Shown in pieces: positions 22,188-44,132 of a stretch of DNA of 48,180 nucleotides. The notes beneath the pieces are model-generated. The model worked only from the letters and a program-made list of their open reading frames with translations, did not search any database and was not told where the DNA came from. A program made the translations under genes and the position numbers. Every line of letters begins with the position of its first letter. Position 1 is the stretch's first letter. Source of the DNA: Proteobacteria bacterium CG1_02_64_396 (lineage in GTDB: Bacteria; Pseudomonadota; MNWR01; CG1-02-64-396); assembly GCA_001872725.1 (NCBI GenBank), contig MNWR01000091.1:1-48180 (forward strand), in the 5' to 3' direction.

Positions 22188-22203
22188 GACCCCATTTTGC
22201 CTG

Positions 22204-29101: not shown

Positions 29102-29452
29102 ATGTTCTTCACCCCCTCCATTCAAAATGTAACGGCTCAGCAGATCGCCCCCCGTTTGCAGCAGGGCGATGCCAATCTGGTGGTGATCGATGTCCGTGAG
29201 GTTGGCGAGCACCGCCAGGCCCACATCCCCAATACCGCCTTGATCCCCATGCATCTGTTGCCGATGCGTTTTCAAGAGATCCCCCGCGATAAAGAGGTGG
29301 TGCTCTATTGCCGCAGCGGCGCTCGCAGCGCCCAGGCCACCGCATGGCTCAATGCCCAGGGGTTCGACAACGTTTCGAATCTGGCGGGGGGGATCATGGC
29401 CTGGCCCTTCGAGATCGAGCGGGGCGAAAATTCGGTTTCCCTGAGCGCGTAA
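29102..29452 (+). CDS. rhd: Rhodanese-like sulfurtransferase (sHdr-associated)
   Basis: A single-domain rhodanese of 116 residues. The active-site loop is CRSGARS with the persulfide cysteine at C70 (VVLYCRSGARSAQATAWL). VVIDVREVGEHRQAHIPNTALIP is the conserved CH2A-type segment. In sHdr loci the rhodanese, TusA and DsrE proteins form a cytoplasmic persulfide relay that feeds sulfur to the Hdr-like complex. No signal peptide. AGGAG precedes ATG 29102. First gene of the relay set. Confidence 0.93.
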   Translation: MFFTPSIQNVTAQQIAPRLQQGDANLVVIDVREVGEHRQAHIPNTALIPMHLLPMRFQEIPRDKEVVLYCRSGARSAQATAWLNAQGFDNVSNLAGGIMAWPFEIERGENSVSLSA

Positions 29453-29514
29453 ATCGGGTTTTCAGCAGCAAGACCGGGAAAAATTTCTTTATTAGAGTTT
29501 CATGATTACTTGTT

Positions 29515-29539
29515 TGTCCCTTGGTTTATTGGGGGGACA
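29515..29539 (+). promoter_or_regulatory. Hairpin in the rhodanese-tusA gap
   Basis: TGTCCC (29515-29520) and GGGACA (29534-29539) form a short stem in the 160-bp space between the two genes, which is AT-rich and could also carry an internal promoter for tusA. There is no following T-run, so it is not a classical terminator. Confidence 0.35.
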
Positions 29540-29612
29540 GAATGCGACCGCGCTAGATTCGGGGCCTTATCCTCGAACTCGCCAACGAATCGATACTAAG
29601 AGGAGAAGACCG

Positions 29613-29849
29613 ATGAGCATTACCGCCCAACAAGAACTCGACGCCAAAGGTTTGAACTGCCCCCTGCCGATCCTGCGCACCAAGAAGGCGCTGAAGGATA
29701 TGGCGGTGGGCGACGTTCTGAAGATCATCGCCACCGATCCCGGTGCGGTGAAGGACTTCGAGGCGTTTGCCAAGCAGACCGGCAACGAGCTGCTCTCGGC
29801 CGAAGAGGGCGGTGGTGTCTACACCTTCTTCATGAAGAAGCTCAAGTAA
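29613..29849 (+). CDS. tusA: Sulfur carrier protein TusA (sHdr-associated)
   Basis: A 78-residue TusA. LDAKGLNCPLPILRTKKALKDM has the CPxP cysteine C16, and VLKIIATDPGAVKDFEAFAKQTGNELL is the second family block. The ATG 29613 follows AAGAGGAG. It receives persulfide sulfur from rhodanese and passes it to DsrE-type proteins and on to the sHdr complex. A strong hairpin follows the gene, which may stabilise the tusA end of the message and allow it to be made in excess. Confidence 0.95.
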   Translation: MSITAQQELDAKGLNCPLPILRTKKALKDMAVGDVLKIIATDPGAVKDFEAFAKQTGNELLSAEEGGGVYTFFMKKLK

Positions 29850-29856
29850 TCAACAT

Positions 29857-29894
29857 CGCCCCGAAGAGCCGCATGGGGAGCGGCCTTCGGGGCG
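29857..29894 (+). promoter_or_regulatory. Strong hairpin between tusA and dsrE2
   Basis: CGCCCCGAAGAGCCGC and GCGGCCTTCGGGGCG pair around ATGGGGA with one bulge, without a T-run. It may be an RNA-stabilising or attenuating stem that sets different levels of tusA and the downstream genes. Confidence 0.5.
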
Positions 29895-29934
29895 AATTAC
29901 CCACGCGACATACATACTCAAAGAGGGGGAAGTC

Positions 29935-30483
29935 ATGTCCGAGGTCGATCTGCAAGGTCTCATCGCCCGAGTCGAGGCTCTTGAAGGCCGGGTTTTCCGC
30001 GACGAAAAGCGGCTGGCCATCATCGCCACCAAGGGGACGCTGGACATGGCCTACCCGCCACTGATCCTCGCCTCCACCGCCGCCGCCCTGGGTTACGAAG
30101 TTACCATCTTCTTCACCTTCTACGGCCTGCAAATCCTCAAGAAGAACCTCAACCTTGAGGTCAGCCCCACCGCCAACCCCGCCATGCCCATGAACATGGG
30201 GGGGATGGATTTCGGTTGGATGCCCGACATGGTTCGTTCGCTGCCCGGCATGACCAAATTCGCCACCGGCATGATGAAGGGTCTGACCAAACAACACGGG
30301 GTCGCCTCCATCGAGGAGCTGCGTGATCTGTGCATCGAGGCCGACGTGCGCATGATCGCCTGCCAAATGACGGTCGACCTGTTCGGCTTCAAGACCAGCG
30401 ATCTGATCGACGGTCTGGAATACGCCGGCGCGGCGACCTATTTTGAGGTCGGCGGCGAGGCCGACATCAACCTCTTCATCTGA
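29935..30483 (+). CDS. dsrE2: DsrE2-family sulfurtransferase-like protein
   Basis: A 182-residue DsrE/DsrF-fold protein of the DsrE2 type. RLAIIATKGTLDMAYPPLILASTAAALGYEVTIFFTFYGLQIL is the typical start, and the conserved cysteine is C143 in RMIACQMTVDLFG, with a second at C133. A methionine- and glycine-rich loop (NPAMPMNMGGMDFGWMPDM) follows the first strand-helix unit. Family members interact with TusA and bind persulfide or membranes. It lies in the relay cluster, 51 bp upstream of a shorter DsrE3 protein. The gap to the next gene contains a CGCCCC/GGGGCG hairpin (30498-30513). Confidence 0.88.
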   Translation: MSEVDLQGLIARVEALEGRVFRDEKRLAIIATKGTLDMAYPPLILASTAAALGYEVTIFFTFYGLQILKKNLNLEVSPTANPAMPMNMGGMDFGWMPDMVRSLPGMTKFATGMMKGLTKQHGVASIEELRDLCIEADVRMIACQMTVDLFGFKTSDLIDGLEYAGAATYFEVGGEADINLFI

Positions 30484-30548
30484 TCCTATCCCTGGGGCGC
30501 CCCCCATGGGGCGGCAGCTCCAGGCTCACTTCCAAGAGGTACGTTTCG

Positions 30549-30920
30549 ATGGATGAGCAAAAGCTGTTGATGATTATGACCTCCGGCGCCAACACCCCGA
30601 CCCGCTGCGCCGCCCCCTTCGCCATGGCCACCGTGGCGGCGGTGATGGACTCCGAAGTCGCCATGGTCTTCAACATGGACGGGATCTCCCTGCTGAAAAA
30701 GGGTGTGGCCGAGAACGTCTACGCCCTTGAGGGTGGCATGAGTGCGCTGGAGTTTTTGCGCCAAGCCAAAGAGGCGGGCGTTTCGATCTACGCCTGTGCC
30801 CCCGCCCTCGACCTCTACCACATGACCAAGGCCGATCTAATCGACGAAGTCGACGAAGTGGTTGGCGGTGCCTGGGTCATTGAAGAGGGTTACGAGTCCG
30901 ACATGGTGTTGACCTTCTAA
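30549..30920 (+). CDS. dsrE3: DsrE3-family sulfur-transfer protein
   Basis: A 123-residue DsrE-fold protein. Likely active cysteine C83 in VSIYACAPALDLY; another, C20, lies in TPTRCAAPF. It is paralogous to the protein at 37154, sharing ALEGG, GVAENxxAL and the TP-x-RCAxPF segment. DsrE3 proteins exchange sulfur with TusA in the sHdr pathway. An AGAGGT site precedes ATG 30549. A 152-bp gap to hdrC1 follows, with a GGGTCC/GGACCC stem (30936-30963) and no T-run. Confidence 0.88.
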   Translation: MDEQKLLMIMTSGANTPTRCAAPFAMATVAAVMDSEVAMVFNMDGISLLKKGVAENVYALEGGMSALEFLRQAKEAGVSIYACAPALDLYHMTKADLIDEVDEVVGGAWVIEEGYESDMVLTF

Positions 30921-31072
30921 ATCAAATTTCGGGGGGGGTCCGGGGGTGCTTGTCCTAGGACCCACGCTTCGTTAGGGGGAGGCTGCCCCGGTTCTTTTGC
31001 CATCACAGGCGGGGGGACAGGGCAGTTTGAGGGGCGGCTTTCGCCCCGCGCGATACCAGAGGAGGTCTTTCG

Positions 31073-31765
31073 ATGGCCACCCACCAGGAAATGCAGCAGA
31101 TCTTCTCGGACATCAAAAGCGACTTTCGCTTTCACCACGAGCTCAACGGCTGCCTGAATTGCGGCGTCTGCACGGCGACCTGCCCGTCGGCCCACTTCTA
31201 CGACTACTCGCCCCGCGAGATGGTGCAGCTGCTCTGGACCGAGAACGTCGAGCAAATCTACGACGCCATGCAAGAGAAGATGTGGGCCTGCGCCCAGTGC
31301 TACACCTGCGCCGCCCGTTGCCCCTTCCGCAACTCCCCCGGCGGCCTGGTGATGATCATGCGCGAGGTATCGATCAAGCACGGGATGGAGTCGGCCAAGA
31401 GTGTGCTGCGCCCCTTCGGGCGGGTGATGCTCAAGCTGATTACCACCGGCAACCAGCTTTCCCCCGACATGATCCAGCCCGACCACTTCCCCGACTGGGG
31501 TCCGAACATCCAAAAGGTCCACGGCGACCTGACGGTGCTGCGCAAGGCGATTCCGATGAAAACCTTGCAGACCACCAGCACCGCCTGGGAGGTCGCCCTG
31601 AAGACCTCGGTCGAGATGTACACCATCTGGGAGATGACCGGGGTGCTCAGCTCCCTGGAGACCATGGACGAGAACCTCTACGACGTGATCGTCGACTTCA
31701 TCGACGAGAAGAAAGAGGACTACGAGGACTGGCTGGAGGAGCAAGAAGAGGACGATGACGACTGA
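31073..31765 (+). CDS. hdrC1: sHdr complex iron-sulfur subunit HdrC1
   Basis: A 230-residue HdrC-like protein. Two [4Fe-4S] sites: C27, C30, C33, C37 (CLNCGVCTATCP) and C73, C76, C79, C83 (CAQCYTCAARCP). A helical C-terminus ends in an acidic tail. GAGGAGG precedes ATG 31073. In sulfur oxidisers the HdrC1B1A-hyp-C2B2 proteins form a soluble complex that oxidises sulfane sulfur to sulfite. C1 passes electrons between the A and B subunits. Confidence 0.95.
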   Translation: MATHQEMQQIFSDIKSDFRFHHELNGCLNCGVCTATCPSAHFYDYSPREMVQLLWTENVEQIYDAMQEKMWACAQCYTCAARCPFRNSPGGLVMIMREVSIKHGMESAKSVLRPFGRVMLKLITTGNQLSPDMIQPDHFPDWGPNIQKVHGDLTVLRKAIPMKTLQTTSTAWEVALKTSVEMYTIWEMTGVLSSLETMDENLYDVIVDFIDEKKEDYEDWLEEQEEDDDD

Positions 31766-31834
31766 TTCTTGGGTCGTTGCGGTCGGTCTGGGGTTAACGC
31801 TGTCGGTACGAGGCTTTGAGGAGGTCAGAAACAA

Positions 31835-33157
31835 ATGAGCGAACAACAAGGGCAAGGTCAGGCCGGTCACGGTACCGCCTGGCAACCCACCAACCTTTCG
31901 AAAGAGGATGCCGTCGAGGCGTCGCGCTGGGTCGGGGCCAAGATCGACAAGCGCCACCTGACCGGGGAGCGGATCGACGATGTCCGCGACCACATGTGGC
32001 ATCTCGAAAAAGAGGGGGAGATTCTCGTCCACCGCATCACCGAGCAGCATGAGCCGGTCGAGGTCGAGACCATCTTCGGCTGGAAGAAGAAGATCCCCAC
32101 CAACCGTCTCTGGCACCACAAGAGTTGCGGCCAGTGCGGCAACATCCCCGGCTACCCCGCATCCTTGCTGTGGTTCATGAACAAGTTCGGCATGGAGTAC
32201 CTGGACGAAACCGACCAGACCTCCTGCACCGCCTGGAACTACCACGGCTCCGGAATTGGCAACGTCGAATCGCTGGCTGCGGTGTTCCTGCGCAACTTCC
32301 ATCAAGCCTACGTTTCGGCCAAGGCCCACGGCCTGCCCGAGGGGTATTACTACCCCTTGGTTCACTGCGGCACCTCGTTTGGCAACTACAAAGAGGTGCG
32401 CAAGTACCTCATCGAGTCGCCCGAACTGCGCGAGAAGGTTAAGAAGATCCTGGGCAAGCTCGGTCGTCTGGTCGATGGCAAGCTCCTCATCCCCGAGGAG
32501 GTCGTCCATTACTCCGAGTGGCTGCACGTCATGCGTAAACGGATCGCGAGCGACCTGCAAACCGTCGACGTCTCGAACATCCGCGCCACCGTTCACCCCT
32601 CCTGCCACGTCTACAAGATGGTGCACGAGGATGCGATCTACGACCCCGAGGTCCTGGGCGGCAACCGGGTTGCGGTCGGGACCGGCATCCTGCAGGCGCT
32701 GGGCGCCGACGTGCGCGATTACTCCACCTGGTACGACTGCTGCGGCTTCGGCTTTCGCCACATCATCTCCGAGCGTGAGTTCACCCGCTCTTTCACCATC
32801 AACAAGAAGCTCAAGGTGGTGACCGAAGAGGCGCAGTCCGACGTGATGATCGGCTTCGATACCGGCTGCATCACCACCATGGACAAGAACCAGTGGGTCG
32901 GCAAAGCCCACGACATGCACTACCCGGTGCCGGTCATCGCCGACATTCAGTTTGCCGCCCTGGCCTGCGGCGCCCACCCCCTCAAGGTGGTTCAGCTGCA
33001 ATGGCACGCCTCTCCGGTGGAGGAGCTGGTCGACAAGATGGGGCTGAACTGGGCCCGCTCCAAGGCGGAGTTCGAGGCGTATCTGACCGAGGTTAAGAAG
33101 GGCAACATCGAATATCTCTACAACCCGCAGCTTGCCTACGGAGGCCTAAAGGCATGA
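31835..33157 (+). CDS. hdrB1: sHdr complex subunit HdrB1
   Basis: A 440-residue HdrB-like protein. The C-terminal half has one clear CCG domain (C257, C302-C303 in DCCGFGFRH, C345 in FDTGC). The N-terminal half is non-canonical, with C98-x2-C101, C131 (SCTAWNYHG) and C178 (HCGT) and no CCG pair. It also has an approximately 90-residue N-terminal extension compared with methanogen HdrB. This asymmetry is characteristic of sHdrB1. Start ATG 31835 with GAGGAGGT; the stop overlaps hdrA as ATGA, so translation is coupled. Confidence 0.93.
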   Translation: MSEQQGQGQAGHGTAWQPTNLSKEDAVEASRWVGAKIDKRHLTGERIDDVRDHMWHLEKEGEILVHRITEQHEPVEVETIFGWKKKIPTNRLWHHKSCGQCGNIPGYPASLLWFMNKFGMEYLDETDQTSCTAWNYHGSGIGNVESLAAVFLRNFHQAYVSAKAHGLPEGYYYPLVHCGTSFGNYKEVRKYLIESPELREKVKKILGKLGRLVDGKLLIPEEVVHYSEWLHVMRKRIASDLQTVDVSNIRATVHPSCHVYKMVHEDAIYDPEVLGGNRVAVGTGILQALGADVRDYSTWYDCCGFGFRHIISEREFTRSFTINKKLKVVTEEAQSDVMIGFDTGCITTMDKNQWVGKAHDMHYPVPVIADIQFAALACGAHPLKVVQLQWHASPVEELVDKMGLNWARSKAEFEAYLTEVKKGNIEYLYNPQLAYGGLKA

Positions 33158-34188
33158 GTCAATCGGTATTGGTGGTAGGTGGCGGGCCTGCGGGCCTTTC
33201 GGCGGCGCACGCCCTGGCCAGCGTTGGGGTTCAGGCGATCCTGGTTGAAAAAGACGAAGTGCTCGGCGGCGCCCCTGTGCGCGACAAATACGCCAAGCTG
33301 GTCCCGAGTGGTCAATGGGCCAAGGATGCCATCGGCGGAATGGTGGAGCGGGTTCAAGACAACGAGAAGATTCGGGTTCTGACCGGCACCACGATCACCG
33401 AATTCGACGGCACCCCCGGCGCCTTCACAGCGAAGACCAGCTCCGGCGAAGAGCTCAAAGTGGGGGCGACGGTGCTGGCCACCGGCTTCACCCACTTCGA
33501 CCCGATCAACAAGCCGGAGTGGGGTTACGGCACCTTCCCCGACGTGGTCACCACCACCGAGGTGGAGGCGATGATCTCCTCCAGCCACAAGGTGACCCGT
33601 CCTTCCGACGGCGCGATCCCCAAGCGGGTTTGCATCCTGCTTTGCGTCGGTTCGCGTGATCGCCAGATTGGCCGCGAGTACTGCTCGCGCATCTGTTGCA
33701 CCGTCTCCACCAATCTGGCGATGGAGATCAAAGAGCTGCACCCCGAGACCGAGGTGTACATCTACTACATGGACATCCGTACCTTCGGGCTCTACGAGGA
33801 CAAGTTCTACTGGAAAAGCCAGGAGGACTACCACGTCAAGTTCGTGAAGGCCCGGATCGCCGAGATCACCAAGCGGGCCGGTCAGATGGTGGTCAAGGGC
33901 GAAGACACCCTGGTCAAGCGCCCCATCGAGATCCCATTCGACCTGGTCATCCAGGCCATCGGCATGGATCCCAACGAACTCAACCCCCAGGTCGCCAAGA
34001 CCTTCGGGGTGGGGCTGGAGAGCCACGGCTACCTCGATAAGTCCGATTCTTATTCCGATTCCTGCGGCACCACCCGTCCCGGCGTCTTCGTGGCCGGTTC
34101 GGCCACCGGCCCTCTCGATATCGATTCGTCGATCAACGAGGGGCAGGCGGCGGCTCTGCGGGCGCTGCAACTGATCAACAACGCCTGA
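33154..34188 (+). CDS. hdrA: sHdr complex flavoprotein HdrA
   Basis: A 344-residue short HdrA. The FAD motif VLVVGGGPAGLSAAHAL starts at residue 5. A cysteine group C160, C164, C177, C181, C182 (CILLCVGSRDRQIGREYCSRICC) is the HdrA-type [4Fe-4S] site. The C-terminus has VFVAGSATGPLDIDSSINEGQAAALRAL, closing the flavin fold. Methanogen HdrA has extra ferredoxin domains that are lacking here, as expected for sHdrA. ATG 33154 overlaps hdrB1. The stop overlaps the next start (TGATG). Confidence 0.95.
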   Translation: MSQSVLVVGGGPAGLSAAHALASVGVQAILVEKDEVLGGAPVRDKYAKLVPSGQWAKDAIGGMVERVQDNEKIRVLTGTTITEFDGTPGAFTAKTSSGEELKVGATVLATGFTHFDPINKPEWGYGTFPDVVTTTEVEAMISSSHKVTRPSDGAIPKRVCILLCVGSRDRQIGREYCSRICCTVSTNLAMEIKELHPETEVYIYYMDIRTFGLYEDKFYWKSQEDYHVKFVKARIAEITKRAGQMVVKGEDTLVKRPIEIPFDLVIQAIGMDPNELNPQVAKTFGVGLESHGYLDKSDSYSDSCGTTRPGVFVAGSATGPLDIDSSINEGQAAALRALQLINNA

Positions 34189-34964
34189 TGAGCGCCCCCC
34201 CCCTGCCTCGCTTCGACGAGGTGCGGCTGCTCGCCCACTGGAAGTCCCTGGGCAATGCCGCCGAGACCCAAGGGGGGCTGGAGTTCTTCGTGGCGGGGTT
34301 AAAGGCCAAGCAGCAGCTCTTCGTCAACGTGTTGGCCGATGAGGCGCTGCCCCAGCTCGACCCCGAAAACCTGGCTTTGATTGTCGAGTCGGTCTTCCCG
34401 GCCCGCCGTCGCCTGTGGTGCTACCTCGAAAACCTGGGTTGGCCCCGGGTGAGGGAGTTGATTGGCGAGCTCTTCGCCGAGGGCAAGCCGGTGGAGGAGC
34501 GGATCACCACCTTTGTGGCAGCCTTCCCCAGCGACAAAAGGGCCCGGGGCGCCCGCGATCTGGCCGCCGAGCTGTTGCACTTTCGCCAGCCCGAGCGCTA
34601 CCCCCTGATGGCCCGCTGGGTCTGGGATGCCAAGGTCAACACCGGGGCGTTGCGGGAGCTGACCGCAGAGGGTCCCCGGGGTGAGCCGATGGCGGTGGGG
34701 GACGATCTGCCGGTCTTTCAAGAAACGTTCGAGCGGTTGCAGCGGTTTTTGGGCGAGCAGGGGGTGTTGAAAGATCTGACGCTCACCGCCGATCTCTTGA
34801 TCGCCCATGTGTACGCCGACTACCTACGGTCTCTGGCCGAGGGGTATCTGAAGAGCGATTTCGGCGGCAAACACGACCCGATGGAGCACACCAAGAAGCT
34901 CCTGGGGATCGACGAGTCCCGACGTCAGGATAAAAGCAGGCTGGTACGCGACCAGGTTCATTGA
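34188..34964 (+). CDS. Conserved sHdr-cluster protein Hyp
   Basis: A 258-residue soluble protein of unknown function. It occurs at this exact place, between hdrA and hdrC2, in known sHdr loci, which is the main basis for the call. It is mostly helical, with no cysteine motif (one cysteine, in RRLWCYLEN) and no membrane span. WHFRQPERYPLMARWVWDAKVN-like segment (LHFRQPERYPLMARWVWDAKVNTGAL) is the most distinctive part. It may help assemble the complex. Start ATG 34188 shares a base with the hdrA stop. Confidence 0.85.
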   Translation: MSAPPLPRFDEVRLLAHWKSLGNAAETQGGLEFFVAGLKAKQQLFVNVLADEALPQLDPENLALIVESVFPARRRLWCYLENLGWPRVRELIGELFAEGKPVEERITTFVAAFPSDKRARGARDLAAELLHFRQPERYPLMARWVWDAKVNTGALRELTAEGPRGEPMAVGDDLPVFQETFERLQRFLGEQGVLKDLTLTADLLIAHVYADYLRSLAEGYLKSDFGGKHDPMEHTKKLLGIDESRRQDKSRLVRDQVH

Positions 34965-34987
34965 ACCCGGTCCCTTGAGGAGGACCC

Positions 34988-35707
34988 ATGCCCATTCATG
35001 AAAAACATCTCATCGAGCCCGAACGTCTGCTCGAAAACGACAACCTGATCGTCGACGGGGTCGATGTCTCCGGCCACTGGAACACCATGATCCAGCCCCG
35101 GACGATCAAGGCTTACGACCCCGAACTCGAAAAAACCATCGAGGCGATCCCCGGTGGGGAGCGGCTGCATCGCTGCTGGCAGTGCGGTTCGTGCACCAAC
35201 GCCTGCACCATGAACGCCCTGAATCCCGACTTCAATCCTCGCTACTGGATCTACCTGATCCGGCTGGGTTTGATGGACGAGATCGCTAAGAACAAAGAGA
35301 TCATTTGGCAGTGCGTGTCGTGCAACAAGTGCACCCACATCTGCCCCAAAGATGTCCGCCCCGAGGCGGTGATGAAAGCGTTGTCGCACCATATGGAGCA
35401 TGTCGGACTCACCCCGACCACCCAATCGACCATCTTCGACGAGGAGTTCACCGAGCAGATTCTGCAACGGGGCCGCATCGAGGACGGGCAGGTGCTGGTG
35501 CAGTACATGCAAAAGAGTGGTCAGTCGCTCAACCAAACGTGGCTGGTGAAGTTGATGAAAGCGACCATGCGCCACCTGCCCGTCGGGCATCTGGTCCACA
35601 TGGGGCTCCACTTCCTGATACCGCCCAAAACCCGCCAGTGGAAGAAGACCGGCGCGGTGTTGCGCCGTTATGTCGAAAAGCAGAAAGGGGCGGTGTCCCA
35701 TGGCTAA
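34988..35707 (+). CDS. hdrC2: sHdr complex iron-sulfur subunit HdrC2
   Basis: A 239-residue HdrC-like protein. Two [4Fe-4S] sites: C63, C66, C69, C73 (CWQCGSCTNACT) and C109, C112, C115, C119 (CVSCNKCTHICP). The first site has CT where CP is usual. The amphipathic C-terminus is basic (LIPPKTRQWKKTGAVLRRYVEKQKG). GAGGAGG precedes ATG 34988. It pairs with HdrB2, whose start overlaps this stop by 8 bp. Confidence 0.95.
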   Translation: MPIHEKHLIEPERLLENDNLIVDGVDVSGHWNTMIQPRTIKAYDPELEKTIEAIPGGERLHRCWQCGSCTNACTMNALNPDFNPRYWIYLIRLGLMDEIAKNKEIIWQCVSCNKCTHICPKDVRPEAVMKALSHHMEHVGLTPTTQSTIFDEEFTEQILQRGRIEDGQVLVQYMQKSGQSLNQTWLVKLMKATMRHLPVGHLVHMGLHFLIPPKTRQWKKTGAVLRRYVEKQKGAVSHG

Positions 35708-36614
35708 GAAGGTTGCCTACTACCCCGGTTGTGCCCTGGAGGGGAGCGGTTCCCCCTACGATCACTCCACTAAGGAGCTGGTCGGTCACCTCGGCCTAGA
35801 GATGGTCAACATCAAGGACTACAACTGCTGCGGGGCGATGGAGGCCAAGAACATCCATCCCATGCTGCAAACCTATATGTCGGCCCGAAACCTTGCCATC
35901 GCGGGCGAGAAAATGGGTTTCGATACCGTCATGGCCCCCTGCAACGGTTGCTACCACAACCTGAAAAAGGCGGAGTACGAGCTCTCCCATGAGCCGAGCT
36001 CCCTCAAGACGGTCAACGAGCTGGCGGCCGAGGCGGGCGATCCCGAATACAAGGGCAACGTCACCACCCTGCACCTGCTCGAATGGCTGATGCAAGAGAT
36101 CGGTCCCGAGGGGATCAAAGCGCGGGTCAAGAACAAGCTGGCCGGGCTGAAGATCGCCTGCTACTACGGCTGCATGTACACCCGTCCTCGGCAGATCTAC
36201 CCCGAGAAAGACAAGGGGCCCGGCTCGGAATCGACCTACAAGCCCTACTACATGGACGAGCTGCTGCGGGCGGCGGGGGCGCAGATCGTCGACTACCCCC
36301 TGAAGACCCATTGCTGCGGCGGCGCCCACACCTTGTCGGACAGCGACACCTCGACCCAGTTGGTGCTCAAGCTGATCGACGCCGCCGACGAGATCGGGGC
36401 CGACATCATTGCCACCGAGTGCCCCACCTGCCATTCGGGGTTGGAGCTGCACCAGATTCGGGGTGAGGATGTTCTGGGCCGTAAAACCGAGGCGCGGATC
36501 GTCTACTTCACCCAGCTTCTGGGTTTGGCTTTGGGGATTCCGGCCCGCAAGCTGCACATCCACGACAACATCTCGGATGCGATTCCCCTCTTGAAGGCCA
36601 AGGGTCTGATTTGA
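35700..36614 (+). CDS. hdrB2: sHdr complex subunit HdrB2
   Basis: A 304-residue HdrB-like protein with two CCG domains. Domain 1: C11, C43-C44 (YNCCGAMEAKN), C81, C84 (CNGCYHNL). Domain 2: C154, C158, C205-C206 (HCCGGAHTL), C241, C244 (CPTCHSGL). These would bind the noncubane [4Fe-4S] clusters where disulfide or persulfide chemistry occurs. Unlike HdrB1, both halves are canonical. ATG 35700 is preferred over an upstream ATG at 35670 because it is preceded by GAAAGGGG. Confidence 0.95.
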   Translation: MAKKVAYYPGCALEGSGSPYDHSTKELVGHLGLEMVNIKDYNCCGAMEAKNIHPMLQTYMSARNLAIAGEKMGFDTVMAPCNGCYHNLKKAEYELSHEPSSLKTVNELAAEAGDPEYKGNVTTLHLLEWLMQEIGPEGIKARVKNKLAGLKIACYYGCMYTRPRQIYPEKDKGPGSESTYKPYYMDELLRAAGAQIVDYPLKTHCCGGAHTLSDSDTSTQLVLKLIDAADEIGADIIATECPTCHSGLELHQIRGEDVLGRKTEARIVYFTQLLGLALGIPARKLHIHDNISDAIPLLKAKGLI

Positions 36615-36689: not shown

Positions 36690-37157
36690 ATGATTGGTGA
36701 TTGCTGCTTCGACCCCAGCCTCTACTACGACGACCAGTATCAGGTCTGGGTCCGGCGTGAGGGTGATGGTACGGTGACGATCGGCATGACCGATCTTTCC
36801 CAAGCCATCGCCGGGCGGATCCTTCACTGCCGCATCCGCAAGGTTGGCACCCTGCGCGAGCTGGGGCGTCCGGCCGCGACCCTTGAATCGGGTAAGTGGG
36901 CCGGTCCCGTTCCCAACCCGCTCACCGGCACCATCGTCGCCCGCAACGAGGTGGTGTTGAACGATCCTGGGCTTCTCAACCGCGACCCAGTGGGGGAGGG
37001 GTGGATCGTGCGGATGCAGCCCGAACGCCTGGAGGAGGAGATCCTGAACCTCGTGACCGGTGAGACGGCGGCGGAGGGCTACAAGGCCCGGATGGAAAGA
37101 GAGAAGATCGTCTGCTCATCGACCCGTGACCCCAATCTCAGGGAGCTGCGCAAATGA
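36690..37157 (+). CDS. lbpA1: Lipoate-binding GcvH-like protein LbpA (copy 1)
   Basis: A 155-residue GcvH-like protein. The lipoyl lysine is K69 in ATLESGKWAGPVPNPLTG. It is not part of a glycine cleavage system (no gcvT or gcvP nearby) and its place after hdrB2 marks it as LbpA, the lipoylated partner of sHdr. It has a longer C-terminus than LbpA2. The sequence starts MIGDCC, with two adjacent cysteines near the N-terminus. No clear ribosome binding site is visible before ATG 36690. The stop overlaps the dsrE3 gene as ATGA. Confidence 0.92.
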   Translation: MIGDCCFDPSLYYDDQYQVWVRREGDGTVTIGMTDLSQAIAGRILHCRIRKVGTLRELGRPAATLESGKWAGPVPNPLTGTIVARNEVVLNDPGLLNRDPVGEGWIVRMQPERLEEEILNLVTGETAAEGYKARMEREKIVCSSTRDPNLRELRK

Positions 37158-37540
37158 CCGACGATTTTCCCGAAGAACAGAAGGTGGTGGTGATCGTCAC
37201 CAGCGGTCCCTCCACCCCTCACCGCTGCGCCACCCCCTTCTTCATCGCCTCGATCCTGGCGGCGATGGACAACGAGGTGGCGGTCTTTTTGACCATGGAG
37301 GGGGTCAAGTTGGCTCAGCCCGGAGTGGCTGAAAACATGGCGGCGCTGGAGGGGGGCAAGCCGATCCTTCAGTTCATCCGCGAGGCCAAACAGGCGGGGA
37401 TCAAGCTCTACTGCTGCCGCCCCGCCCTGCCGGGGTACGAGATGGATGCCGACAATCTGATCGAGGAGATCGACGAGATCGCCTCGGGGGGGACATTGGC
37501 CGATTTGATCTTGAGCTACGACAAGGTCATCTCTTTTTGA
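37154..37540 (+). CDS. dsrE3: DsrE3-family protein, second copy
   Basis: A 128-residue DsrE-fold protein, paralogous to that at 30549. It has C25 (TPHRCATPFF) and an adjacent pair C87-C88 in IKLYCCRPALPGYEM, where the paralogue has a single cysteine (YACAPA). It is embedded between two lipoate-binding proteins and overlaps the first by 4 bp, so it may deliver sulfur directly to, or take it from, an LbpA partner. No other family-level function is known to me. Confidence 0.85.
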   Translation: MTDDFPEEQKVVVIVTSGPSTPHRCATPFFIASILAAMDNEVAVFLTMEGVKLAQPGVAENMAALEGGKPILQFIREAKQAGIKLYCCRPALPGYEMDADNLIEEIDEIASGGTLADLILSYDKVISF

Positions 37541-37678
37541 TGGCTTGACGGGTGGTGCGACAGGTCGCTTGGCGAGCGTCTGTGAATCCCCCCGATCCGG
37601 CAACGACGAATTCATCTGCTGTCCTACCAAACCTTGATGGGGACTCATCCCCGCGCAACAACAACCTGGAGGTGTTTC

Positions 37679-38119
37679 ATGGCAACCGTGATGGGCTGCA
37701 ACGTTCCCGAGGATCTGTTCTACAACGTAGGTGACAACGTCTGGGCCCGCGAAGAGGGTGACGGCACCATCACCGTCGGCATGACCGCTGTGGCCACCAC
37801 TCTGGCCGGCGCCATCGTCGCCTTCACCCCCAAGAAGGCGGGTAAAGGGGTCGAGGCCGGTAAATCGATTGCCACCGTCGAGTCGGGCAAGTGGGTGGGA
37901 CCTGTGAAGAACCCGGTCGGCGGCGAAGTGATTGCCATCAACGAAGATGCCAAGGGCAACCCCGGCATCATCAACGAAGACCCCTACGGCGCGGGCTGGC
38001 TGGTGAAGGTGCAACCCGCCGATTGGGCCGCCGCCAAGGGCGCCCTGCTCACCGGCGGCGACGTCGCCTCCGCCTACGAGACCAAACTGGCGGCCGACGG
38101 CTTCGGCGGCTGCAAGTAA
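37679..38119 (+). CDS. lbpA2: Lipoate-binding GcvH-like protein LbpA (copy 2)
   Basis: A 146-residue GcvH-like protein. The lipoyl lysine is K71 in ATVESGKWVGPVKNPVGG. The sequence ends FGGCK. It is more typical of sHdr-associated LbpA2 than the first copy. GGAGGTG precedes ATG 37679. A strong terminator follows, so this is the last gene of the sHdr transcript. Two LbpA proteins with different tails suggest either two sHdr partners or a lipoylated carrier pair. Confidence 0.94.
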   Translation: MATVMGCNVPEDLFYNVGDNVWAREEGDGTITVGMTAVATTLAGAIVAFTPKKAGKGVEAGKSIATVESGKWVGPVKNPVGGEVIAINEDAKGNPGIINEDPYGAGWLVKVQPADWAAAKGALLTGGDVASAYETKLAADGFGGCK

Positions 38120-38338: not shown

Positions 38339-38365
38339 TGTAGGAGCGGCGCCCCGCCGCGATGC
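38339..38365. repeat. REP-like hairpin
   Basis: GTAGGAGCGGCGCCCCGCCGCGATGCC contains a GCGGCG/CGCCGC stem after the GTAGGAGC tag typical of REP sequences in gammaproteobacteria. It abuts repeat copy D and lies about 40 bp upstream of the lipS1 start. Confidence 0.7.
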
Positions 38366-38403
38366 CTTGGTTTTTCGTTTGTTTATCCCTCCCCGGAGGC
38401 GGC

Positions 38404-39447
38404 ATGAGCATCTGGCCCCAACCCCTGTTGCAACACGAGATGTACGAAGATCTCCCCTTCGACGCCGACCTGATGGCCCAGCTTGAGGCGTTGCAGCCGA
38501 CCGTGACCGCCGGGGCGGGCAACCGCATCAATTTTTACGTTCCGACCTTCAAGCAGTTCGAGACCAGCGAGGTCTCCTCCTGCGGCAAGAACGACTTTCC
38601 CGGCATCTCGATCACCGGCGGCGATTGCGATCTGCAATGCGACCACTGCAAAGCCAAGATTCTCGCCCCGATGATCCCGGCCCGGACCCCCGAGGCGCTG
38701 TGGCACGAGGCGACCAAGGCGGCAGGTCAGGGGGCCAACGGATTGCTGATCTCGGGCGGTTCGAACGTGCGCAACGAGGTTCCCTTCGCCCCCTTCTTCC
38801 CCACCATGAGCCGAATCCGCGAAGAGCTGGGCTTGAAGCTCGCGGTCCACACCGGATTGGTCGACGAGGAGCAGGCGGCCGGGTTCGCCCAGGCCAAGGT
38901 CGACGTGGCGATGCTCGACATCATCGGGGCGCAAGAGACCATCACCGAGGTCTACCACCTCAAGCGTCCGGTCGAGGAGTTCGAGCTCAGCCTCAAGCGG
39001 CTCAACGAGGCGGGGCTCAAGACGGTCCCTCACATCGTCATCGGGCTGCACTACGGCAAGTTCCTGGGGGAATACAAGGCGCTGGAGATGATCGCCCGGC
39101 AGAAACCCTCGGCGCTGGTGCTGGTGGTGGTCATGCCCTTCTACGCCCCGGCCAACAAGATCTTCATGACCCCCAACGTGCATCAAATCGGCCGCTTCTT
39201 CATGGCGTGCCGCAAGGCGCTGCCCGACATCCCGATTCTGCTCGGCTGCGCCCGCCCCCCCGGCGAGCACCGCTTGATGACCGACGCCTACGCCATGCTC
39301 TCGGGGCTGAACGGCATTGCCTTCCCCAGCGAGGGGCTGGTCGGGATTGCAGAACAACTGGGGCGCCAGGTCGGGGTGCACCCCTCCTGCTGCTCGATGG
39401 CGGTCGATCCCCAGCTTTTTGAGGGCAAGGAGGAGGTGGCGGCGTGA
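38404..39447 (+). CDS. lipS1: Radical-SAM lipoyl synthase component (LipS1 type)
   Basis: A 347-residue radical-SAM protein. The SAM [4Fe-4S] cysteines are C75, C79, C82 (CDLQCDHC). C60 (VSSCGKNDFPG) precedes them, and C-terminal cysteines GCARPPGEHR and HPSCCSM could bind an auxiliary cluster that donates sulfur. It belongs to the pair of radical-SAM proteins (LipS1/LipS2) that jointly insert the two sulfur atoms into octanoyl groups. Which of the two radical-SAM genes here is LipS1 is inferred from gene order. ATG 38404 follows GGAGGC. The stop overlaps the ligase start as GTGA. Confidence 0.8.
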   Translation: MSIWPQPLLQHEMYEDLPFDADLMAQLEALQPTVTAGAGNRINFYVPTFKQFETSEVSSCGKNDFPGISITGGDCDLQCDHCKAKILAPMIPARTPEALWHEATKAAGQGANGLLISGGSNVRNEVPFAPFFPTMSRIREELGLKLAVHTGLVDEEQAAGFAQAKVDVAMLDIIGAQETITEVYHLKRPVEEFELSLKRLNEAGLKTVPHIVIGLHYGKFLGEYKALEMIARQKPSALVLVVVMPFYAPANKIFMTPNVHQIGRFFMACRKALPDIPILLGCARPPGEHRLMTDAYAMLSGLNGIAFPSEGLVGIAEQLGRQVGVHPSCCSMAVDPQLFEGKEEVAA

Positions 39448-41090
39448 GTGGGCACCAACCCTGGAGAGAGATCGACACCGGACTCCAGTCCGCCGCGACC
39501 AACATCGCCTGGGATCGGACCCTGCTCGAACTGCGCTCCGAGGGGGTCATCCCCAACACGCTGCGTTTCCTGCGGTACACCCCCACCGCGCTGGTCGGCT
39601 ACCACCAATCGCTCAACGAGGAGCTGCGGCTCGACTACTGCCGCAAGCAGGGAATCGAGATCAACCGCCGGGTGACCGGCGGCGGCGCCATCTACTTCGA
39701 CGAACCGCAGCTCGGTTGGGAGCTGATCTTCGACCGTCGCCTTTTCGGCGCCACCACCGACATGGCGACGATCTCGCAGCGCATTTGCGAGGCGGCGGCC
39801 GAGGGACTGCGCGGTTTGGGGATCGAGGCGGCCTTCCGCCCCCGCAACGACATCGAGGTGGAGGGACGCAAGATCTCCGGCACCGGCGGCGCCTTCGACG
39901 GCGACGCGGTCCTTTTTCAGGGCACACTCCTGATCGATTTCGACGTCGAGGCGCTGCTCAAGGCGTTGCGGGTTCCCACCGAAAAGCTCAACAAGCGGGA
40001 GATCACCTCGGCCCGGGAGCGGGTCGTCTCGGTCAAGGATCTGCTCGGCCACATCCCCGACTTCGAAACGGTGAAGGAGGTGATGCGCGACGGTTTTCGC
40101 CGCCACTTTGGGATCGATTTTACCCCCGGCGAGCTCACCGCCGCCGAGCGGGAGCGGTTCAAAGAGGTGCTGCCTGAAATCGAAGAGACCGAGTGGGTCG
40201 AGCTGGTCACCACCCCCGAGGAGCAAGCCGACATCCCGGTCGTCTACGGGGTGCACAAGGTGCGGGGCGGTTTGCTGCGGGCGCGCCTGGCGCTCGATCT
40301 CAAGCGGCGCACCGTGCGCAGCGCCATGATCTCGGGCGATTTCTTCATCCACCCCAAACGGTTTGTTTTCGACCTAGAGGCGGCGCTGCGCGACTGCCCT
40401 CTCGACCAGGTCGAGGTGAGGCTCGACCTCTTCTTCGCTGGGCAGAAGGTGGAGATGCTGCTGCTCTCCCACCGGGAATTCCGCGAGGTGATCCTCAAGG
40501 CGCTCGATAAACTCAAGATCGCCGACCGATTCGGCCTGAGCGTCGAGGAGACCCGTGATGTCATGCTCTGGGGCAACCAGCCGATGGAGCAGACCCTGCG
40601 CGAGGCGACCGTCATGCTGGTCCCCTACTGCGCCAAGCCGACCGATTGCGAGTGGCGCCACAAGGATGGTTGCGACGAATGCGGTCGCTGCGCGGTCGGC
40701 GACGCCTACCGGATGGGGCGCGAACGGGGGATGAAGGTCATCACCGTCATCAATTACGAGCAGCTGGGCGACACTCTGGATCGCATGAAGCAAGAGCAGG
40801 TGCCGGGTTATGTAGGGATGTGCTGCGAGGCCTTCTTCATTAAGCGTCAGAAGGCGTTCCGCGATGCCGACCTGCCCGCCGTGCTGCTCGATATCGAGGG
40901 GGCGACCTGCTACGAGCTGCGCGAGGAGGACAAGGCCTACGCCGGAACCTTCGAGGCCTTTGCGGGTTTGAAATTGCCCATCGTCGAAAAGGTGATGGCC
41001 TTTGTGCCCCCCCTCGGCTTGCCGGTCGAGGAACAGAGCGACGCCTTCCCACGCCGCAGTTTTTTAAAGCAGAAAAAGGTTTCTGGGTGA
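39444..41090 (+). CDS. Lipoate-protein ligase sLpl(AB) fused to a DUF116 domain
   Basis: A 548-residue three-part protein. Residues about 1-240 form an LplA ligase domain with the lipoate loop RRVTGGGAIYFDEPQLGWELI (75-95) and the catalytic lysine region GRKISGTGGAFDG (K143). Residues about 262-360 form an LplB-like domain (GLLRARLALDLKRRTVRSAMISGDFF). Residues about 388-505 match DUF116: PYC-x5-C-x7-C-x2-C-x2-C (C396, C402, C410, C413, C416), then GMCCEAF (C460-C461) and C489. The cysteine layout suggests iron-sulfur binding. It attaches octanoate or lipoate to apo-LbpA. The GTG starts and stops are coupled to lipS1 and lipT by 4-bp overlaps. Confidence 0.85.
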   Translation: MSGHQPWREIDTGLQSAATNIAWDRTLLELRSEGVIPNTLRFLRYTPTALVGYHQSLNEELRLDYCRKQGIEINRRVTGGGAIYFDEPQLGWELIFDRRLFGATTDMATISQRICEAAAEGLRGLGIEAAFRPRNDIEVEGRKISGTGGAFDGDAVLFQGTLLIDFDVEALLKALRVPTEKLNKREITSARERVVSVKDLLGHIPDFETVKEVMRDGFRRHFGIDFTPGELTAAERERFKEVLPEIEETEWVELVTTPEEQADIPVVYGVHKVRGGLLRARLALDLKRRTVRSAMISGDFFIHPKRFVFDLEAALRDCPLDQVEVRLDLFFAGQKVEMLLLSHREFREVILKALDKLKIADRFGLSVEETRDVMLWGNQPMEQTLREATVMLVPYCAKPTDCEWRHKDGCDECGRCAVGDAYRMGRERGMKVITVINYEQLGDTLDRMKQEQVPGYVGMCCEAFFIKRQKAFRDADLPAVLLDIEGATCYELREEDKAYAGTFEAFAGLKLPIVEKVMAFVPPLGLPVEEQSDAFPRRSFLKQKKVSG

Positions 41091-42148
41091 GTACGGACTT
41101 ACCCGCTCAGGTCGATGTGGTGGTGATCGGCGCCGGTCCCGCCGGGGGCAACGCCGCCCAAGCGGCGGCGTGCCGGGGGCTCACGGTGCTGTTGGTCGAC
41201 AAGCGGGCCGAGCCCGGTCTGCCGATTCAGTGCGCCGAATTCATCCCGCTGATGATGCGCCGCTACGCCCCCGAGGGGGTCTTGGTCCAAGAAATCGAGG
41301 GAATGCGCACCTTTCTCTTCGGACAAGAGGACCGCTGGGATCCCTTCCCTGGCCTGATGATCGACCGCCACGCCCTCGATGCCGGGCGGGTCGCGGCGGC
41401 GGTTGCCGCCGGGGCGCAGCTTGTCGTCCACACCCGGTTCGAGGGGTTCGACGAGGAGGGGGTGGTGTTGGAGCAAAGGGGCATCCGCCGGACGGTGCGG
41501 GCCAAGGTGGTGATCGCCGCCGACGGCCCCAAGTCGGCGGTTGCCAAGGCGCTGGGGCTGCCGCTGCAACCGACCATCCCGACCCGGCAGGTGACCGTCA
41601 GGCTGCTCAAGGAGTACGGCTCCACCGACATCTTCCTCGATCCCGAATTTGCCGGGGGGTACGGCTGGCTCTTTCCACGTGGAACCATCGCCAACCTCGG
41701 GTTCGGCGGCTTTCGGGTCGGCAGCGACTTCAAAGCCAAGCTGAGCCGTTTGATCGAACGCAACGTGGCGCGGGGTCTGATCGCCCCCGAAATTCTCAGC
41801 ACCACCGGCGGCGACATCCCGGTGGGGGGGGTGCGTCCTTTGGTGCACGGCCATGTGCTGCTGGCGGGCGACGCGGGGGGTTTCACCCATCCGATCACCG
41901 GGGGGGGGATTCCGGCGGCGTTGATTTCGGGGCAGGCGGCGGGGGAGGCGGCCGCCGCTTGGCTATCGGGTGACGGCGAAGCCTTCACCGAGTACGCGCA
42001 AGAGATGCAGGACCACTTCGGTCCCGCCCTGGAACGGGCGGTCCGCCGCCGCCGCGTCATTGAGCAAGAGATGGCCAACCCTGAGGTCGATTGGGCCGAC
42101 GCGCTGCGGCGTAGTTGGATTGCTTACCCGCAATACATGACGGCGTGA
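41087..42148 (+). CDS. FAD-dependent oxidoreductase of the lipoate cluster (LipT type)
   Basis: A 353-residue geranylgeranyl-reductase-like flavoprotein. FAD motifs: VVVIGAGPAGGNAAQAAACRGL (10-31), AKVVIAADGPKSAVAKALG, and HVLLAGDAGGFTHPITGGGIPAALISG. Here a GGR-fold enzyme is not linked to lipid genes but sits between the ligase and the second radical-SAM gene, the place of LipT in sHdr-type lipoate loci, where it is proposed to supply electrons for LipS1/LipS2. The substrate is not proven. GTG 41087 overlaps the ligase stop. Confidence 0.8.
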   Translation: MSTDLPAQVDVVVIGAGPAGGNAAQAAACRGLTVLLVDKRAEPGLPIQCAEFIPLMMRRYAPEGVLVQEIEGMRTFLFGQEDRWDPFPGLMIDRHALDAGRVAAAVAAGAQLVVHTRFEGFDEEGVVLEQRGIRRTVRAKVVIAADGPKSAVAKALGLPLQPTIPTRQVTVRLLKEYGSTDIFLDPEFAGGYGWLFPRGTIANLGFGGFRVGSDFKAKLSRLIERNVARGLIAPEILSTTGGDIPVGGVRPLVHGHVLLAGDAGGFTHPITGGGIPAALISGQAAGEAAAAWLSGDGEAFTEYAQEMQDHFGPALERAVRRRRVIEQEMANPEVDWADALRRSWIAYPQYMTA

Positions 42149-42409: not shown

Positions 42410-43552
42410 ATGACCGCGACCGCCCCCAAAGCCGAAGCCGCGCCGTTGAACTTCTATCGCCCCAACAACAATGTGCTCACCCCCGAGATGCGCTCCCCCC
42501 AGTGGGTGCAGATGAGCACCGCAGCGGCGATCACCTTGGGGATCATGCCGGGCTGGATGCACCGTACCGATTGCACCCACTGCCTGAACCTGCTGCTCAC
42601 CTACCCCGAGGGGTGCCGCGCCAACTGCGCCTATTGCGGCCTGGCTCGCCACCGCGACGAGGAGCGCAACTACGCCGACCGCAATTTCATCCGGGTCGAT
42701 TGGCCCTCGGCCCCGCTCGACGACGTGATCCAGACGATTAAAGAGGGGAAAGACGGCGGCAAAGTCGAGCGGATGTGCATCTCGATGATTACCCACCCCC
42801 GCTCCGAAGAAGATACCTTGGCGATCCTCAAAAAGTGGCGGGCCGAGCTGCCCGAGATCCCCACCTCGATCCTCTCCAACCCTACCACCATGAACCGTGC
42901 CGACTTGGTGGCACTCAAGGAGGCGGGGGCCGACATCTTCACCGTGGCGCTCGACGGAGCCAGCGAGGCGGTCTTCGAGGCGACCCGGGGCAAGGGGGTG
43001 CAGGGGCCGCATACCTGGAGCAAATACTGGGAGGTGCTGGGGATGGCCCGCGAGATCTTCGGCCGCGAGCGCATCGGCGCCCACATCATCATCGGCATGG
43101 GGGAAAGTGAGCAGGAGGCGCTTGAGACCATCCAGAAGGTGCGTGACATGGGGGGGCACAGCCACCTGTTCGCCTTCTTCCCCGAAGAGGGCTCCCTGAT
43201 GGACGACCGTCCCGCCGTCGACCGCGCCCAGTACCGTCGGGTGCAATTGGGCCGCTACCTGATCGACTTCGATCACGCCCGTATCGAGCAATTCAGCTTC
43301 GACGCGGACGGTGTGGTCACCGACTACGGCCTGTCGGCCGAAGATTACGACTACTTCGTCAACCAGGGGCGCGCCTTCCAGACCTCGGGCTGCCCCGGCA
43401 AGTCCCACGACGTTTCGGCCTGCAACCGCCCCTACGGCGATTCCCCGGTCTCCGACATCGCCTCCTTCCCCTTTGCCCTCAATGCCGAGGATGTTTTGAT
43501 CGCCAAGGCGCAGCTGGAGGGCAAGCCGGTGCCGGAGCGGGCTGAGGACTGA
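42410..43552 (+). CDS. lipS2: Radical-SAM lipoyl synthase component (LipS2 type)
   Basis: A 380-residue radical-SAM protein with BioB/LipA-like features. SAM-cluster cysteines are C69, C73, C76 (CRANCAYC). A preceding pair C55-x2-C58 (CTHCLN) may hold part of an auxiliary cluster, with C-terminal cysteines GCPGKSHDVSACNRP. SMITHPRSEEDTLAILKKW and GAHIIIGMGESEQEALETI are TIM-barrel segments. It is the second of two radical-SAM proteins in the locus and fits the LipS1/LipS2 two-protein lipoyl synthase. AGAGGAG precedes ATG 42410. The REP cluster upstream separates it from lipT. Confidence 0.8.
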   Translation: MTATAPKAEAAPLNFYRPNNNVLTPEMRSPQWVQMSTAAAITLGIMPGWMHRTDCTHCLNLLLTYPEGCRANCAYCGLARHRDEERNYADRNFIRVDWPSAPLDDVIQTIKEGKDGGKVERMCISMITHPRSEEDTLAILKKWRAELPEIPTSILSNPTTMNRADLVALKEAGADIFTVALDGASEAVFEATRGKGVQGPHTWSKYWEVLGMAREIFGRERIGAHIIIGMGESEQEALETIQKVRDMGGHSHLFAFFPEEGSLMDDRPAVDRAQYRRVQLGRYLIDFDHARIEQFSFDADGVVTDYGLSAEDYDYFVNQGRAFQTSGCPGKSHDVSACNRPYGDSPVSDIASFPFALNAEDVLIAKAQLEGKPVPERAED

Positions 43553-43561
43553 GCGGGGGGT

Positions 43562-43589
43562 GGTGGGGGGATTTCCCACTCCCCCCACC
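43562..43589 (+). promoter_or_regulatory. GC-rich hairpin between lipS2 and the thioredoxin gene
   Basis: GGTGGGGGG (43562-43570) pairs perfectly with CCCCCCACC (43581-43589) around a 10-base loop, starting 9 bp after the lipS2 stop. It is followed by a C-rich stretch without a T-run, so it is more likely an attenuator or mRNA-end stabiliser than an efficient terminator. Confidence 0.5.
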
Positions 43590-43616
43590 CTCTCCCACCC
43601 CCCCAAGGTCCGAGCT

Positions 43617-44132
43617 ATGCCCCATCCTCCCCCCAGCCGGCGCTCCTGGCTTACCAACCTGCTGCTCTTCCTCGCCGTGTTCGCCGCCGTCACCTGGTGG
43701 CAAACCCGCAATCTCGTCTCAACCGGCGAACCCCTTCCCCATCTCACCCTCACCACCCTCGACGGTCAGATCCTGCGCACCGCCGATCTGCGCGGTCGTC
43801 CCACCCTGATTTACGCCTTTGCCCCCTGGTGCTCCATCTGTCGCCTGTCGGCGGGTAATTTGGAATCGCTCAAGGGGGAGGTCACGTCGGGGAGGCTCAA
43901 CCTGCTGATGGTGGGGCTGGCGTATCAAACCGGGGATGAGGTGGCGCGGTTTATCCGTGACCAAAAATTGACCGTGCCGGTGGCGCTGGGCGACCCGGCA
44001 ACGGCTCGGGCGCTCAAAATCGAGGCCTTCCCGACCTACTACCTGCTCGATGCTCAGGGGCGGGTGGTGTTTCGCTCGGTGGGGTACAGCAGCGAGGTAG
44101 GGATGCGGCTGCGGTTGCTGGGGGTGGAGTAG
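43617..44132 (+). CDS. Membrane-anchored TlpA/ResA-like thioredoxin
   Basis: A 171-residue protein with an N-terminal membrane anchor (about residues 10-27, LTNLLLFLAVFAAVTWW) and a periplasmic thioredoxin domain. The redox motif is WCSIC in YAFAPWCSICRLSAGNLESL, followed by VPVALGDPATARALKIEAFPTYYLLDAQGRVV with the cis-proline. Related proteins (TlpA, ResA, CcmG) reduce apocytochrome c or other periplasmic thiols. It may serve maturation of the heptahaem cytochrome or be a thiol oxidoreductase for sulfur compounds. AAGG precedes ATG 43617. It ends 2 bp from the convergent PAS-GGDEF gene. Confidence 0.82.
   Translation: MPHPPPSRRSWLTNLLLFLAVFAAVTWWQTRNLVSTGEPLPHLTLTTLDGQILRTADLRGRPTLIYAFAPWCSICRLSAGNLESLKGEVTSGRLNLLMVGLAYQTGDEVARFIRDQKLTVPVALGDPATARALKIEAFPTYYLLDAQGRVVFRSVGYSSEVGMRLRLLGVE

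Follow-up and report, generated by a model that had tools for sequence, protein, structure and literature searches.

The window, the whole 48,180-nucleotide stretch of DNA from Proteobacteria bacterium CG1_02_64_396 that we analyzed, contains a complete sHdr-lbpA-lipS1-sLpl-lipT-lipS2 cluster of sulfur-oxidation and lipoylation genes (Table 1). The order of its sHdr genes matches that of the published hdr-lbpA operon (PMC6382920), and the order lipS1-slpl-lipT-lipS2 is the same as in PMC10332631. As an earlier reading made from the sequence alone had noted, the lipoate ligase gene lies between lipS1 and lipS2, with lipT separating it from the latter. The gene is open through 548 codons, has no internal stops, and shares 4 nucleotides with the lipS1 stop and 4 nucleotides with the lipT start, a tight fit in the operon. 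A TlpA-like thioredoxin-family gene (43560-44132) stands immediately after lipS2. Elsewhere in the window, an open reading frame of 582 amino acids (22168-23916) has no Pfam match.

Table 1. Features of the sHdr-lip cluster in the window and of the fusion protein that it encodes (res., residues).
Feature	Position	Strand	Basis or remark
Upstream sHdr cluster	29102..36614	+	Rhodanese, TusA, two DsrE proteins, Hdr-like C/B/A, hypothetical protein, Hdr-like C/B
GcvH-like lipoate-binding protein LbpA, likely substrate	36690..37157	+	GCV_H 4e-34
DsrE family protein, between the two lbpA genes	37154..37540	+	DsrE 2.5e-21
Second LbpA, likely substrate, ESGKW lysine motif	37634..38119	+	GCV_H 2.4e-35
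lipS1, radical SAM lipoyl synthase component	38362..39447	+	Radical_SAM; CxxxCxxC in the sequence
sLpl(AB)-DUF116 fusion gene	39444..41090	+	548 aa, GTG start
LplA catalytic domain (res. 17-218)	39492..40097	+	Pfam LplA-B_cat PF21948, 2e-46
LplB accessory domain (res. 269-354)	40248..40505	+	NCBIfam NF053749 and Foldseek match to two-domain LplA
Junction and linker (res. ~345-381)	40476..40586	+	Alignment
DUF116 domain (res. 382-491)	40587..40916	+	PF01976 above cut-off
Cys396, Cys402 and CxxCxxC Cys410/413/416	40629..40691	+	Invariant in 67-68/68; probable metal (Fe-S) site
Cys460-Cys461 pair	40821..40826	+	Invariant in 68/68
Cys489	40908..40910	+	Invariant in 68/68
lipT, FAD oxidoreductase	41087..42148	+	FAD_binding_3, GGR_cat
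lipS2, radical SAM lipoyl synthase component	42410..43552	+	Radical_SAM 2.8e-16

The encoded protein is a true sLpl(AB) ligase joined to a Pfam DUF116 domain. The presence of LplA, LplB, and DUF116 on one chain, proposed in the sequence-only reading, is confirmed by Pfam, NCBIfam, and structural matching. In a motif comparison, the LplA domain carries the true-ligase motifs RRVTGGG and RPRNDIEVEGRKISGTGG, the second of which holds the ligase lysine (Lys143) and agrees with true sLpl(AB) proteins. NCBIfam model NF053749 matches the LplB domain with an E-value of 6e-15 and 55.2 bits, slightly below the model cut-off of 65. AlphaFold produced a confident single-chain model (pLDDT 88.5, pTM 0.86), the N-terminal ~360 residues of which match two-domain lipoate ligases in Foldseek, such as Listeria LplA1 (TM 0.82 on the target, E 4e-23). 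The DUF116 assignment also held: PF01976 matches at 2.7e-9 and 37.1-40.1 bits, over a gathering cut-off of 25. This is the only DUF116 domain in the genome. Two more ligase-like proteins are encoded on contigs C39 and C7 (L035:5623-6387(-) and L036:6669-7718(+)), both without DUF116; one is single-domain and LplA/LipM-like and lies close to a GcvH-like gene, and the other is a 349-residue Lpl(AB)-like protein.

What kind of domain is DUF116? All eight cysteines that had been pointed out from the sequence (C396, C402, C410, C413, C416, C460, C461, and C489) are conserved, each in 67-68 of 68 aligned homologues, and this invariance across the subfamily is far above chance. PF01976 matches the DUF116 domain of 61/61 homologues. 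Over 1953 pairs, mean identity is 62% for DUF116 and 35% for the ligase-like part to which it is usually fused, and DUF116 is the higher of the two in each pair; DUF116 is therefore the constrained part of these proteins and their conserved core. For true sLpl(AB), mean identity is 55%. AF2 modeled the isolated domain with a mean pLDDT of 89 as a mixed alpha/beta fold. Foldseek searches of this model against PDB and viral libraries gave no match at E <= 0.001, and a DUF116 profile compared with PDB sequences found no solved relative, only chance matches such as zinc-ribbon ribosomal proteins. Neither Pfam nor fold matching revealed an Nfu/NifU or other known Fe-S carrier domain in the fusion protein. 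Judged from its sequence, DUF116 is probably a [4Fe-4S]-binding module. It is very unlikely that DUF116 is instead a structural (zinc) or docking domain with no part in catalysis or transfer. CxxC-type motifs bind zinc too, and such a domain would fit the failure to match any known Fe-S carrier by fold, but a simple zinc knuckle needs less than the CxxCxxC spacing together with eight invariant cysteines, two of which form the CC pair.

When a collection of about 85,000 genomes was scanned for the DUF116 part of the protein, 70 loci came back, all of them in Proteobacteria or unclassified bacterial bins. Nearly all complete loci encode a protein of ~530 residues in which DUF116 follows an N-terminal ligase-like part. 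We name these proteins Lpl*-DUF116, for a divergent ligase-like domain with a C-terminal DUF116. The Lpl* part shares only 24-45% identity with the window ligase and has lost the KISGTGG loop; it keeps Lys143 in 64/68 proteins and retains an RR(T/S)GG motif. A separate true sLpl(AB) of ~360 residues, 42-58% identical to that of the window, is found in 48 of the 50 Lpl*-DUF116 genomes, and none of these ligases carries DUF116. Three genomes of the class sample (G607, G816, and G721) encode divergent Lpl*-DUF116 proteins with no sLpl(AB) detected, and in all three homologues Cys460 is replaced and Cys461 kept. No lip or ubi genes were recognized around these three divergent genes (L192:6863-8503(-), L193:6769-8505(-), and L194:7116-8693(-)). 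Besides the window protein, no true ligase joined to DUF116 was present in the phylum sample or the class sample, and a plasmid search yielded, among the matches listed, only LplA-type ligases without DUF116. The sequence-only reading had pictured octanoyl attachment and sulfur insertion as coupled on one chain. Since DUF116 is elsewhere fused to a divergent ligase-like paralogue, such coupling is not general, and the union of a true ligase with DUF116 is peculiar to the window genome among those examined.

How did this union arise? In a phylogenetic tree, the N-terminal part of the window protein falls inside true sLpl(AB) and apart from Lpl* (SH-aLRT 100 for a 49-row clade and 96 for a 47-row clade). 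The DUF116 part groups on a long branch with lipS1-linked Lpl*-DUF116 members of Thioalkalivibrio (97/86). Alignment of the junction agrees with both placements: the sequence upstream of residue ~358 resembles true sLpl(AB), and from there onward it resembles the Lpl*-DUF116 linker. The window protein has the DUF116 and linker of the Lpl*-DUF116 family without the divergent Lpl* domain, and the fusion partner of DUF116 is changed. Read most simply, the trees and the alignment point to a fusion or an exchange of domains around residues 345-358; some small probability remains that the window has retained an ancestral fusion.

The association of DUF116 with lipS genes that the earlier reading proposed to survey is present and strong. 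In counts that take genomes as independent and in which related genomes share ancestry, LipS1 was detected in 45 of 50 Lpl*-DUF116 genomes vs 7 of 399 in the phylum sample (where 2/2 DUF116 genomes have LipS1), and, in a 369-genome class sample, sLpl(AB) was found in 9/12 genomes with DUF116 vs 19/357 others (Fisher p 4e-9). Three of the five Lpl*-DUF116 genomes without clear LipS1 (G407, G426, and G427) retain sLpl(AB). In G426 and G427, the ligase lies close to a contig edge or adjoins a LipS1 fragment, so assembly gaps are likely behind the missing LipS1. Membership of DUF116 in the LbpA lipoylation pathway is thus well supported by genome comparison. The dependence of LipS1/LipS2 on DUF116 is another matter. 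DUF116 is absent from 19 of 40 LipS1 genomes in one order and from 5 of 7 in the phylum sample. Because so many LipS1-positive genomes are without it, the link between DUF116 and LipS1 alone is not significant within that order (p 0.70). The proposed tie to LipS1/LipS2 therefore stands as an association but not as a general dependence, and the many LipS1 bacteria without DUF116 indicate that the domain is accessory rather than essential. Many LipS1 genomes of the Thioalkalivibrio order are without DUF116, and Thioalkalivibrio K90mix may therefore lack the protein; we did not use a missing DUF116 as the cause of the K90mix reconstitution in E. coli stopping at one sulfur (PMC10332631).

Could DUF116 serve ubiquinone rather than lipoate? 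The genes ubiU and ubiV belong to oxygen-independent ubiquinone synthesis. In about 37 of the 70 loci, the Lpl*-DUF116 gene stands directly 3' of ubiV, which itself follows ubiU; in 12 loci it flanks or stands near lipS1, 19 loci have neither context, and none has both. The expected lipS neighborhood thus exists in the window, whereas most DUF116 genes with a recognizable context are in ubiUV operons. The arrangement ubiU-ubiV-[Lpl*-DUF116] recurs in most of loci L058-L109 (e.g. L079:4590-8725), often with ubiT, nrdD/nrdG, hemN, and ubiD nearby, and Lpl*-DUF116 is a conserved additional gene in the oxygen-independent ubiquinone operons of sulfur oxidizers. TlpA-like genes lie close to Lpl*-DUF116 in loci L071 and L076. 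This gene order, and UbiU matches that pass the cut-off in the majority of Lpl*-DUF116 genomes, would suit a factor that serves UbiU/UbiV, for example by supplying clusters, with the LipS1 link reflecting a shared lifestyle. We regard this explanation as quite unlikely. In a tally of 47 genomes of one order, from which we excluded a genome whose UbiU is partial and two small bins that have neither UbiU nor LipS1, DUF116 was present in 14/14 UbiU+ LipS1+, 0/4 UbiU+ LipS1-, and 7/26 UbiU- LipS1+ genomes, and UbiUV therefore exists without DUF116. Moreover, UbiU is missing from the window genome and from two genomes of Thioalkalivibrio, yet all three have DUF116 within or next to the lip cluster, which argues that its main business is lipoate and not ubiquinone, and in the window the domain is attached to an LbpA ligase. 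The rule of one order that UbiU+ LipS1+ genomes have DUF116 is not general, since three alphaproteobacteria of the phylum sample (G003, G332, and G366) are UbiU+ LipS1+ without DUF116. Such genomes also indicate that the domain is not a strict requirement of LipS chemistry or of anaerobic growth.

What might a probable iron-sulfur domain contribute to lipoylation? The sulfur that LipS1 and LipS2 insert comes from an auxiliary [4Fe-4S] cluster in each enzyme, and with physiological reductant they perform only 1-1.5 turnovers (PMC9585515). A cysteine-rich domain that is linked to this pathway, and that the LbpA ligase carries in the window, could reasonably be what restores clusters or supplies sulfur or electrons. 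We therefore tentatively propose, as a possibility that falls somewhat short of probable, that DUF116 is an accessory LbpA-lipoylation module, probably one that contains a [4Fe-4S] cluster. The window protein would be the cluster's functional lipoate/octanoate:LbpA ligase, having acquired the DUF116 tail of an Lpl*-DUF116. The ligase-like partner, which is Lpl* in most species and a real ligase in the window, would probably dock on LbpA or on the acyl-lysine, and DUF116 would provide LipS1/LipS2 with an iron-sulfur cluster, sulfur, or electrons. Every turnover of LipS1/LipS2 uses up their auxiliary clusters, which therefore need regeneration. We infer that DUF116 would be useful but not essential, perhaps chiefly at low oxygen, which would explain the usual location of its gene in ubiUV operons. 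A bolder version, about which we are doubtful, makes DUF116 the partner so far missing for LipS1/LipS2, regenerating their clusters or sulfur at low oxygen in many sulfur oxidizers, with Cys460 in the transfer site. To date, the only members found to have lost Cys460 come from genomes in which no sLpl(AB) was detected.

Two other roles for the domain deserve consideration. First, Lpl*-DUF116 could be an alternative LbpA acyltransferase that uses octanoyl or lipoyl groups from another donor, with DUF116 as an integral part, merged in the window with the ATP-dependent ligase. Lpl* retains Lys143 and the RR(T/S)GG motif, and published sLpl(AB) takes only free octanoate or lipoate (PMC10332631), so a second acyl route would be useful. 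However, the window has its Lpl* part replaced by a true ligase and DUF116 retained, and DUF116 is the better conserved half, which makes this role unlikely in our estimation. Second, DUF116 could be a redox or oxygen sensor or switch that tunes the ligase or LbpA lipoylation through its cysteines without donating anything. In every full-length member seen, DUF116 is fused to a ligase-type domain; this fusion, the association of DUF116 with oxygen-independent ubiUV operons, and its invariant cysteines are all consistent with a switch. Nevertheless, the usual partner is so divergent, with its KISGTGG loop lost, that it is not obviously an enzyme to regulate, and the true ligase functions without DUF116 in most genomes. 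A sensor is accordingly an improbable role for DUF116, and we retain the accessory lipoylation module as our working proposal.

Our literature searches found no bacterial DUF116 function in titles or abstracts and no article joining DUF116 with lipoate terms, no description of an sLpl(AB)-DUF116 or Lpl*-DUF116 fusion, and no named partner that rebuilds the auxiliary [4Fe-4S] cluster of LipS1/LipS2. An eight-cysteine domain that occurs mainly with the LipS1/LipS2 pathway is a concrete candidate for that partner. Additionally, these findings offer a functional lead for a family without an assigned role and link lipoate assembly for sulfur oxidation to the genes of oxygen-independent ubiquinone synthesis. 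Altogether, DUF116 is a credible candidate for an accessory part in building the lipoic acid cofactor of sulfur-oxidizing bacteria.

How does the window protein compare with known systems? By proposed role only, it may be likened to NfuA, the cluster donor to LipA, which restores the sacrificed auxiliary cluster of that lipoyl synthase; the two are unrelated in sequence, and the window protein has no Nfu/NifU domain. Its cysteine-rich C-terminal domain is like Pfam DUF116 (PF01976), whose model it matches over the cut-off. The closest known relatives of its ligase are the sLpl(AB) proteins of the sHdr-LbpA system (Cao 2018, PMC6067878; Tanabe 2023, PMC10332631), in which LplA and LplB also form one chain, identity to the window protein is 42-58%, and the gene likewise lies in a lipS1-slpl-lipT-lipS2 cluster with lbpA and shdr. 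In Hyphomicrobium denitrificans, LbpA2 stays apo when sLpl(AB) is deleted (PMC10332631); where it has been tested, then, the ligase is indispensable. These pathway-defining papers (PMC6067878, PMC10332631) do not mention DUF116, and the sLpl(AB) homologues without the domain in our comparison stop at about residue 357, whereas the window protein continues into DUF116. Finally, the Lpl*-DUF116 proteins of proteobacterial sulfur oxidizers share with the window protein the DUF116 domain (44-64% identity), the linker, and all eight cysteines; unlike it, they have a divergent ligase-like N-terminus, occur beside a separate true sLpl(AB), and are often encoded in a ubiUV operon.
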